This document shows, in pieces, positions 48,574 to 52,865 of a stretch of 64,000 nt of DNA. Position 1 is the stretch's first letter. Each line of letters begins with the position of its first letter. The notes below the pieces were generated by a model. The model had not been told where the DNA came from, did no database searches, and saw only the letters and a list, made by a program, of their open reading frames with translations. Made by a program: the position numbers and the translations under genes. The stretch comes from Aphelidium insulamus (taxonomy: Eukaryota; Aphelidiomycota; Aphelidea; Aphelidiaceae): the NCBI GenBank assembly GCA_036784855.1, contig JAZDSV010000032.1, forward strand, positions 118,183 through 182,182. Direction: 5' to 3'.

Positions 48574-51500
48574 ATGGCGTCCAAGACTGTGAGCACCGCC
48601 ACACCCGGCCGATTTGAACAGGCCAAGGCGGCACTGGAGGCCAAATACGAACTCATGGAGACGCTGGGAACGCAAGTGATATCTCTTGCGTGATACTACA
48701 TACAACCCTTGTCTAACCGGACAGAGGCGCCTTCTCGGAGGTGAAGCGTGGCGTGAACCGCGCCACGGGAGAGACATTCGCCGTGAAGATTATAGACAGG
48801 CAAAAGTGTGTCGGCAAGGAGAACATGATACAGAGCGAGATCAGTATCCTGCAGCAGGTCAAGCACCCAAACATCATTCAGCTGTACGAGCTGTTTGAGA
48901 CTGACCAGCAAATCTATCTCGTGATGCAGCTGTAAGTGAGTGGCGTGTAATTTATTGTTATTCGTGGATATAGATTACTTGTAAGGTCTTCTAACGGTAC
49001 AGCGTGACCGGCGGAGAGCTGTTTGATTCCATTATTGCGCGTGGCCACTACACGGAGGCTGATGCGGCCAACATTGTTGGAAAGATCCTTCAAGCCGTTG
49101 ATTATTTGCATTCGCACGGTATCGCGCATCGTGACTTGAAGGTTTGTGGGAGTAACTGTAATTACGGGCCATTCAGACGTATTCATCTCTCCAGCCGGAG
49201 AACTTGCTCTTCTACTCAACGGAGCCAGATGCCAAAATTATGATTAGCGATTTCGGTCTGTCCAAGATATTCAATGTGAGTGGAATTTGTGTGCACTGGT
49301 CATTGTCATTGATGTCTTTGTGCAGGATGAAGAGGTCATGAAGACGGCGTGTGGGACGCCTGGTTACGTAGGCAAGTTTGGTGCTATTTGCTTTAACATC
49401 AACTAACAACCAATTAGCGCCCGAAGTACTCGTGCGCAAAGGATATGGCCGCCAGGTGGACCTGTGGTCGTTGGGCGTGATTACATACATTCTGCACGTT
49501 GCTTGACCGTATCGGATATAATATTGCATCTCACCGCTTAACAGGCTGTGCGGCTACCCGCCCTTCTACCACGAAAACAACCAGGATTTGTTCCAGCTGA
49601 TTATGCGTGCCGAGTACGAATTCGATTCGCCAAACTGGGACGACATCAGCAGCGAAGGTACATACTTGTTCTCTGTTTCTGGCAGCTCTCATCACACCTA
49701 TAGCCAAGGATTTCATCTCCCAGATGCTAATTGTCGATCCCAAGAAGCGTGTCACGGCCGCCAAAGCGCTGCAGCATCCATTCATCACAATGAACACCGA
49801 ACAAGAGCCGGAAGCCGCGCCGTTTAAATCTGCATGGGAGACCGCGTCGACGACGACAGAGCGGCCAACCGTGGCCCCGACCGCCGCAATGGCCGAACCC
49901 ACGCTGGCAACTGCCACGGGAACCATGGCCACGGAGCGGCCCAAAGTCACCAGCAGAGTGCCGTCCAACTTGGCCCAGCGCGTGTCGGACAACTTGCGCT
50001 CACGCGGCATGTCCACGTCGACTCGGCGCCGGTCAGTGGATCCGTCGAACGTGGGCATCGGCCACGCAGTGTACCACTCGAATGTTCCGACGCACGCTCC
50101 GCCGCCGGTGCCGTCATCGCGCGGCTCCAAGGCCGTGGTGGAGACGCAGCAGCAGCAGCAACAGAACCGACCCCTCTCTGTTCTTCCCGGTCCTCCATCG
50201 CATCCGCCACCCCAAATGCAGCCAAGCCCCATCACGGAAGCTGAAGATGAGAATGCCATCGAAGGCGGCATGTACTATTTACGTACTGAATATGTACGGC
50301 GAGACTGACAGTTCATTCATGTAGGATTCCGCGTGCCAGATGAGGAAGTGCAGCCTGGTCGGCCACTGCAGGCCAAGCGGACTGTGGATGATAGCGGTGT
50401 CCATGTAAACAAATCGGCCTCGTCTGCCAACGTGAATGCCGAAGATGCGCGCGTCACGCAGCAGCCACCAGTCAGCGACACTCTCCGCTCGGAAGATGAT
50501 TTGAGTTTCCTGAATGAGCTGGCCGTGGTGAACCGTCTCATCGAAGCCGGCCATATGGAGGAGGCGTACACTCTGCTGCAGACGATTGACGGTTGTCCGT
50601 ACAAACTGCGCCAGCTCTACGACCACATTCTCATCTCGGGCGGTGTCGCCATTGATGTGAGTGCTGCGCAAAATACGGCCAAAGGAGCTAGCCGCGGCAC
50701 AAGTGGCACCGAAAACTTCAAGCAGCAGGCAGCCGGCAAGCAAGTATCCAAGCAGCAGCTGCCGGCACAGCAGCAAGTCAGCGCCGAGTCCTTTCTGGCG
50801 GACATGGCGGTGTTGGTGGAGCGTATGCAGTCCAACAGTGCCGTTGTTGCGCCCGACTCGCACAAGGAGATGCTGGACGGGTTCGAGAGGCTCAAGATCG
50901 AGTACGTGGCGAGTTCGGCGCAGCAGCAGAGCCGTCCCGAGAGCGGTGCCAGTGGCCGGGTGCTGCAGTCTCTCCTCGACAAGGCCAAAATGAAGCTCGA
51001 GTCGATATTTGGCGGTGGCGGTGCTGCCACCGCACTGTCCCCGCTGCGCGCGTCCACGAACAACATCAGCCGGGTGCCATCGCGCGGTATCGGCCTCGCA
51101 AACACTCCCGTCACCCTCGGAGTGCCGGCCACGGTGTCACCACTATGCTCCTTCCAGTACCCGACTCCGCCAAAGATGATGAGCAATACGGCGTTTGCCG
51201 GGATGTGCCCAGTTCGTCTGCTCAGCTACAATTTGTGTCTGCGGCCGCCCGGCGTCAAGAGCAACCCGGCCACCAGTGCGCACAAGGACGCCAGACTGTC
51301 GCACTTTATTGCCCATGTGTTGCCGCACTACGACGTGGTTGCACTGCAGGAGGTGTTTGCCTTCGGGTCCAGCCGTCGCGACAGACTGCTGCGCAAGGCC
51401 AAGGCCGAGGGATTCCACTACTGGGTGTGCAGTTCCGCCAAGCAGGAGCTGCACAACCTGGTGGACGGCGGACTGATGCTGCTGTCTCGCTTTCCCGTCG

Positions 51501-52865
51501 TCGACCGCAAGCGCATGGTGTTTGAGGAGCGGTGCGGCACAGACAGGCAAGCACTGCATCGTGTGGAGGTCTCCGTCCTAATGAGTGTAATATCATGCAG
51601 GTTCTACGGCAAGGGCGCTCTGTACGCCAAGGTGCAGCTTCCATTTGTTCCGGGTCGCGACGGCAAATTGCAATACATGCACCTGTTCAACACGCAGTTG
51701 CAGGTGAACGACGGCCGACAGTCATACGAGCAGTTTGACCCACTGGACGAGTGCACGTCGGTGCGCTACCGACAGGTCACGGCCCTCAAAGCGTTCGTGG
51801 ACACGCAGCTCCGAGGACGCGGCGCACATGACTTGGCATTCATTGCCGGCGACATGCATATTAACGCACGATGCGGCGTGCAATCTCGTCAAGCAGCTGC
51901 AGCATCTGGCAACGAGTATCAGGCAATGAAGCGCGCGCTGGAAGGACACCAGGCCTTGGGTGACATTGAATCGGCCACGGAGAAACCCACGCCATTCCGG
52001 CTGCGTGACCTCTTGCTGGAGAATCTTGGCGAACATCCAGTGACCATTGGTGACATTGATCCCAGAATGAATAATGCACCCGCGGAGACTGTGTTGACCA
52101 GTCCGGCAATGGCTGGAGTCCGCGCCTCCACCGACTACATATTTCAGCTTGTGTTTGCTGCAGACAGTTCTTCTGCTGTTGCCACCACTACCACGACTAG
52201 TGCCGATGACAAGAAGCGTGCCGTGGTAGATGTGTCGGAGACCAGAATTGAACGGTTCCAAAAGTACATTCCTTTGCCGGAGGAGCTGGCTCAAATGGCC
52301 AAAATGGCAGCCGGCACCAAACAGCCAAATGACACCGCAGATATTGTCAAGTCGTCCGAGATCGTGTTTAGCAATATGTCATCGACTGCGGATGGTGCTG
52401 CTCTGCCACTGGGCACCTCTCCCACATCCGTGGCAGCTCCATCCACCGGTGTTCGTAGCGAAGAGGCGTCAACCGCATCCCTAATGGACGCAACATACCA
52501 AGCTGGCGAAGATGTCATGGCATCCATGGACGGTGTTGATCAATTACCGCATAGCCGAGAACAGCAACAGCAAAAGCGTGACATTACCAGCGAGCAGGGA
52601 ACTTTATCGTCGCTTCAACAGCAGCAGCAGCAGCAAAGTAACAGTAATGCTTCCGCTGCAAAGGGAACAGAGCCAAGTGGAGTACCAAAGGTTTACAGCT
52701 CCAGCCGTTTCATGGAGCAAATGTACCGCGAGTACGTTGAACTAGTGCGCCGCGAGCAGTTCACACAGCTTTCCGGTAGGATTTATCTACCTTTCCATAG
52801 TTTAATTGTAATGCATGACAGATCACTACGCGGTCACGGCGGTTATTCGAGGATACACCGAGTAG
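48574..52865 (+). CDS. CaMK-type protein kinase fused to a sphingomyelinase-like phosphodiesterase domain
   Basis: Eleven exons (48574-48671, 48725-48931, 49003-49141, 49195-49275, 49326-49371, 49418-49493, 49545-49657, 49704-50282, 50325-51546, 51601-52775, 52822-52865) give 1259 residues in one frame. Residues 20-290: kinase with GTGAFSEV, FAVKII (Lys), HRDLKPENLLF, DFGLSK, GTPGYVAPEVL, closest to CaMKI. A disordered Ser/Pro/Gln linker follows, then a helical segment ([20 protein letters not shown]) and an endonuclease/exonuclease/phosphatase domain: [65 protein letters not shown]. Four introns use GC donors. The join 50282/50325 is the decisive one: an alternative donor at 50271 would end the kinase shortly after, making two genes. 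Confidence 0.75.

Follow-up and report, generated by a model that had tools for sequence, protein, structure and literature searches.

A gene at positions 48574-52865 of the forward strand, in a window of 64,000 nucleotides (nt) from Aphelidium insulamus (contig JAZDSV010000032.1; the window is the whole stretch of DNA that was analysed), joins a serine/threonine kinase of the type of calcium/calmodulin-dependent kinase I (CaMKI) and an endonuclease/exonuclease/phosphatase (EEP) domain related to neutral sphingomyelinases (SMases) in a single reading frame. The favoured reading, to which a probability of roughly 0.6 is assigned, is that this is one gene for one protein, in which the kinase is followed by a disordered linker and by a mostly non-hydrolytic SMase-derived module that would bind lipid, metal or a protein partner. 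The joint frame, the recurrence of the arrangement in chytrids, the intact kinase residues of the window and the changed catalytic residues of the EEP domain are all observed directly, and the last of these, together with the recurrence in chytrids, had not been part of an earlier reading of the DNA made from its letters (the sequence-only reading).

From the ATG at 48574 to the TAG ending at 52865, the gene is modelled with 11 exons (48574-48671, 48725-48931, 49003-49141, 49195-49275, 49326-49371, 49418-49493, 49545-49657, 49704-50282, 50325-51546, 51601-52775 and 52822-52865, forward strand) that form a single frame of 1259 residues, an intron model of our own based on homology, not on transcripts. 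The ten introns measure 42-71 nt and four of them are GC-AG (donors at 48672, 49372, 49494 and 51547), a high share that may be a mark of the genome and a cause of exons being overlooked by annotation. The sequence-only reading had ended the kinase exon at 50282 in phase 1 and resumed the frame at 50325 across a 42-nt GT-AG gap, giving 1259 residues up to 52865, and every one of these elements is present in the sequence. The intron that it proposed (50283-50324, forward strand) is the disputed point of the gene. When it is left unspliced, the kinase frame meets a TGA stop at 50308, its last 11 residues being YYLR followed by TEYVRRD, and the second frame has its first in-frame ATG after the junction at 50555, in keeping with the earlier count of about 220 nt lacking one. 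Around the junction there are 16 frame-compatible GT/GC-AG pairs (35-90 nt); 50283-50324 is the one modelled, and another of them may be the pair used. Two introns not named in the sequence-only reading are also needed for the full frame, a 54-nt GC-AG intron that is stop-free in frame (51547-51600, forward strand) and the last intron (52776-52821, forward strand), which lies directly before an SDHY motif and supplies the conserved end of the protein.

Both halves have clear identities. The kinase domain (residues 25-281; 48646-49786, forward strand) is matched in full by the Pfam protein kinase model (E 1e-84), has CaMK1D as its first match in a sequence search of the PDB (E 1.5e-103, residues 21-286) and carries VAIK, HRDLKPEN, DFG and the activation-loop sequence TACGTPGY. 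The catalytic lysine, HRD, DFG and the context of the activation-loop threonine are all present; the kinase is complete and probably active. The EEP domain (residues 743-1259; 51212-52862, forward strand) is matched by Pfam Exo_endo_phos over residues 747-939 (E 7e-8), and these two E values exclude chance for both domains. A PDB sequence search (phmmer) with residues 497-1259 placed bacterial sphingomyelinase C and human SMPD3 first (E 7e-7 to 8e-5); the domain also contains a long low-complexity insert at residues ~1045-1230. TIGR03395, a curated SMase model, was the best non-kinase match in the four relatives tested, with all scores far below the cut-off (best, 67 of 248.2 bits).

The same domain order recurs among predicted proteins of chytrids. 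A protein search with the EEP part of the window returned one protein, HK098_001120 of Nowakowskiella, which bears both domains; querying with its EEP part gave 27 proteins, HK098_001120 among them; and an alignment used as query in a third search gave five, one already known, with Rhizophlyctis rosea and the closest relative, P0029, among the five. These searches retrieve only proteins with exact words in common and two of the three scored the best-matching candidates only, such that the lack of a named match in other chytrid orders (in Spizellomyces, Batrachochytrium or Synchytrium, for example) cannot be claimed as absence. At least part of the kinase lies in the same record as the EEP domain in 19 of 21 relatives (P0001-P0019, P0028 and P0029), with only the kinase tail in P0006 and P0012 and no kinase part in P0007 and P0019. 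These 21 and the window make up the 22 rows of the family; P0030, which lacks the domain end, and P0031, which was excluded from counts and trees, were also recovered. Thirteen entries are named chytrids (Nowakowskiella, Borealophlyctis, Quaeritorhiza, Cladochytrium, a Lobulomycetales metagenome-assembled genome (MAG), Blyttiomyces, Dinochytrium, two Chytriomyces, Siphonaria, Entophlyctis, Podochytrium and Rhizophlyctis), and all four whose taxonomy was looked up belong to the Chytridiomycetes. The fused relatives are labelled as kinase, ribosomal protein or hypothetical, and the fusion is easily overlooked, since no label mentions both domains. At the carboxyl end, 12 of the 21 relatives read into SDHY, eight depart at the end of QLS, where the window has its last intron, and P0019 stops earlier; this is most simply read as an ancient intron in front of a very short final exon, which automatic annotation tends to miss. 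Two records, P0015 (Siphonaria) and P0017 (Entophlyctis), carry, after the fused kinase and EEP domain, a ribosomal protein domain (PF01015) from which they take their names, probably through the merging of neighbouring gene models.

The linker provides the evidence closest to the junction. A conserved motif, RPL..K...DDSG.V (RPL/I, then K/R, then DDSG.V), is present at residues 457-478 (22 residues; 50354-50419, forward strand), on the 3' side of the junction; the first in-frame ATG follows 135 nt further on. It occurs at regular spacing in 13 of P0001-P0019 and as variants in P0002 and P0009, as well as in P0028 and P0029. A profile of the 13 relatives scores the window motif at 24.8, a score reached by none of 5000 shuffled linkers (highest, 18.6). 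The DSG motif is, by resemblance, a candidate phosphorylation or degron site. P0029 is colinear with the window across the junction, sharing NLAQRVS.NLR.RG, RR.SVD and HAPPPVP.SR before it and, after it, DSG and a further stretch (residues ~506-545; 50501-50620, forward strand; helical by eye) that spans both sides of the ATG at 50555. Codon use between the junction and this ATG is coding-like, and the fusion frame fits best. Further, the fused frames of P0003 and P0011 take up 2235 of the 2313 nt and 2394 of the 2495 nt available in their longest contigs, leaving almost no room for introns, so that both domains stand there in one nearly intron-free frame; these may well be transcript contigs. 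The relatives, the motif upstream of the ATG and the colinearity of P0029 thus bear out the claim of the sequence-only reading that kinase and EEP domain share a single frame, which would be expressed as one transcript, and its identification of the two domains is upheld by the relatives and by a structural search with one of them.

That search was made with AlphaFold2 models of relatives. The EEP domains of P0008 and P0002 and the kinase of P0002 are mostly confident; the kinase part of P0008, whose record lacks the start of the domain, is poor. Foldseek with P0008 placed the sphingomyelinase SmcL and the Bacillus cereus SMase at the top and CaMKI next, and the fold of the window domain is assigned by way of this relative. 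VIA-align with the P0002 model listed kinases only and thus has no bearing on the EEP part. In P0002 the linker with the DSG motif is disordered, with a predicted local distance difference test (pLDDT) of ~27.

The catalytic set of the neutral SMases (N16, E53, H151, D195, N197 and H296 in B. cereus numbering) is incomplete in the window. Four of the six residues are kept (the equivalents of N16, E53, D195, as Asp938, and H296), and two are replaced in the PDB alignment, His151 by Gln886 in NTQLQ (51695-51697, forward strand) and Asn197 by His940 in GDMH (51857-51859, forward strand). The importance of these residues is supported by a study of bacterial SMases (PMC9710629), in which E53 and H296 act as ligands, metal-bound waters sit on N16 and N197, a title cited there names His151/His296 as the acid-base pair, and the central metal-site residues are more than 99% conserved in 276 bacterial SMases. 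Across the family, five residues were surveyed, His296 being omitted as gene models end early. At least one is altered in 14 of 22 rows, compared to none of 11 unfused relatives (P0020-P0023 are near-identical copies, and these 11 represent fewer independent lines). The Asp195 of GDxN is replaced in 12 of the 22, by S, C, G, T, N or V, and at least six changes of the Asp state are required on the EEP tree; because the family rows are not independent, no probability is attached to these losses. The intact unfused relatives include two stand-alone SMase-like genes of the same genome, both with intact catalytic motifs, L025 on contig C1 (reverse strand; signal-peptide-like start by eye) and L026 on contig C53. 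A second kinase-SMase fusion was considered on C1, where a kinase lies near the SMase-like gene, and was rejected, as the two are on opposite strands and the kinase is a different one (32% identity).

Phylogenetically, the two halves seem, from these sequences, to have travelled together on the whole. In the EEP tree (32 rows, catalytic columns omitted; P0019 dropped, as the start pattern overlooked it), the 21 fused-family rows group together (93/92, not starred) and the window pairs with P0029 (98/97). The kinase tree (18 rows, with the pieces of P0015, P0018 and P0029 wrongly cut or partial) also pairs the window with P0029 (98/99) and repeats the pairs Nowakowskiella/Cladochytrium, the two Chytriomyces and P0003/Lobulomycetales MAG. 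Two differences speak against simple co-inheritance: Dinochytrium joins Chytriomyces and Blyttiomyces in the EEP tree (98/93) and not in the kinase tree, and the Siphonaria/Podochytrium and Borealophlyctis/Rhizophlyctis pairs of the former are not seen in the latter. A tentative history, held at somewhat less than even odds, is that, in an early chytrid ancestor, a neutral sphingomyelinase was captured by a CaMKI-type kinase; stand-alone SMases would have gone on doing the chemistry, and the captured domain would have lost catalytic residues repeatedly in different chytrid lines, becoming a lipid-sensing pseudoenzyme that places or gates a calcium kinase.

Under the favoured reading, the EEP domain of the window and of most family rows keeps its fold and most metal-site residues and is altered in residues needed for hydrolysis. 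It would bind either a protein partner or the head group of a phospholipid (sphingolipid or phosphoinositide), which would bring the kinase to that membrane; lineages with an intact EEP site may hydrolyse as well. By analogy with CaMKI, control of the fusion kinase by Ca2+/calmodulin is expected. A candidate regulatory segment, NLA..V..NL (residues 342-355, 14 residues; 49967-50008, forward strand), is proposed by position alone, 60 residues past the kinase domain. By pattern and by eye it is found in nine of the 22 family rows (the window, P0029 and seven others), five extra pattern matches (P0012 twice, P0013, P0019 and window residue 931) being discounted as misplaced or due to chance. The full CaMKI regulatory segment was not recovered for the fusion by the PDB sequence search, in which alignments end with the kinase domain. 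The link from calcium and phosphorylation to sphingolipid or phosphoinositide sites put forward in the sequence-only reading is therefore kept only in part: it is plausible as targeting or sensing, and hydrolysis by the window copy is doubtful, as the equivalents of His151 and Asn197 are gone.

Several observations weigh against this reading. Eight of the 22 family rows, among them Cladochytrium, Quaeritorhiza, Blyttiomyces and the Lobulomycetales MAG, have all five surveyed residues intact, so that hydrolysis may go back to the ancestor and persist in some lineages. The rows that have lost the Asp keep the other surveyed residues, except for Asn16 to Asp in Nowakowskiella; such retention would be surprising if the site were entirely dead and fits altered chemistry. 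No calmodulin-binding segment was demonstrated. VAIK, HRD and DFG are all matched in only 12 of the 22 rows, the remaining ten being, as far as can be judged, partial or misassembled records, and most of the relatives are predicted gene models, a few of them with obvious faults. P0003, P0006, P0008 and P0016 show no linker motif. The predicted template modelling scores (pTM) are 0.56 for P0008 and 0.50 for P0002, and no fixed packing of the domains is seen in the models.

The main rival takes the fused EEP domain to be a working phosphodiesterase, acting on sphingomyelin, inositol-phosphoceramide or a phosphoinositide and switched by the kinase, with residue changes that alter its chemistry and do not abolish it. 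The eight intact rows fit such a bifunctional enzyme, as does the SDHY end, which is read in 13 of the 22 family rows, the gene models of the other nine ending or departing before it. Set against this are the two replacements in the window (His151 to Gln and Asn197 to His) the repeated Asp changes on the EEP tree, and the lack of any change at the surveyed residues in the 11 unfused relatives; the rival is judged unlikely, at about one chance in four.

The remaining rivals concern the junction. Retention of the 42-nt intron would yield a kinase-only form ending at 50308 and its removal the fusion, making the linker intron a switch between free and tethered kinase. Retention adds just seven residues (TEYVRRD) after YYLR before the TGA, and further frame-compatible splice pairs lie nearby; no such switch is visible in P0003 and P0011, which are fused in nearly intron-free frames, and alternative splicing of this kind is considered improbable. 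Least credible by far is that two neighbouring genes are involved, a kinase ending at 50308 and an EEP gene that begins at 50555, or further upstream with no ATG, the joint frame being due to chance. The stop met when the intron stays in would suit it, but the span between the junction and the first ATG holds a conserved motif and coding-like codons, and chytrid relatives have the same order; a chance joint is rejected on the linker motif, the relatives and the colinearity of P0029.

The window comes from an assembly of 17.95 Mb and carries eukaryotic genes, and the relatives of the fusion suggest kinship with chytrids. Around the fusion gene lie an RCC1-repeat protein upstream (46485-47114, reverse strand), a lipoyl-domain protein that is perhaps a subunit of a 2-oxoacid dehydrogenase complex (53049-54011, reverse strand) and an ankyrin-repeat protein with NGCPWD-type repeats (54256-55962, reverse strand); at the gathering threshold, Rfam matches the window just once, at a tRNA (22679-22760, forward strand). 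A decayed copy of ~4.7 kb of the window (52187-56926), ~80-84% identical with many gaps, is found near a contig end (C132, 1-4446; L027); within it, the final part of the fusion gene is present in broken form. A search of the genome for a second CaMKI-type kinase returned, among the best candidates only, matches outside the fusion gene that were at most 49% identical, and protein kinase matches were clustered on contigs C42, C160, C150 and C101, which suggests tandem kinase families.

Both domains are of known kinds, and their recurrent combination in chytrids is apparently undescribed: no description of a kinase-SMase fusion was found in the open-access literature searched, subscription papers being outside that search. 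Homologues resembling SMPD3 are reported from all across the fungi in a survey of their sphingolipid proteins from 2026 (PMC13161914), which nowhere uses the term 'protein kinase'. If true, the fusion would tie calcium-dependent phosphorylation to sphingolipid or phosphoinositide membranes directly within one chain, retained across several zoosporic fungal orders, and the catalytic residues that have changed time and again would offer natural pairs of intact and changed orthologues for studying the step from enzyme to sensor.

Compared to known systems, the kinase resembles the CaMK1 group (CaMKI, CaMK1D and CaMK1G) in its match to CaMK1D and in the common TACGTPGY activation loop. Animal CaMKI consists of a kinase and a short regulatory tail, whereas the fusion has ~970 further residues, including the EEP domain. 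The closest counterparts are the chytrid proteins labelled 'calcium calmodulin-dependent protein kinase type 1G' (Borealophlyctis, Quaeritorhiza, Dinochytrium, Chytriomyces hyalinus and Rhizophlyctis), which have the same domain order and the linker motif in common, with different spacing in Borealophlyctis and Rhizophlyctis, and whose labels name the kinase alone; the window and P0029 differ from them in an extra linker stretch and the long EEP insert. The EEP domain is akin to the neutral and bacterial sphingomyelinases (SMPD3, SmcL and the B. cereus SMase), which were the top matches of the window in the PDB and of P0008 in Foldseek, but here it is joined to a kinase, the window lacks the His151 and Asn197 equivalents, and 12 of the 22 family rows lack Asp195. 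The rhodopsin-guanylyl cyclase fusion of a zoosporic fungus (PMC4046227) is likewise a signalling gene fusion in a flagellated fungus, built from unrelated domains.

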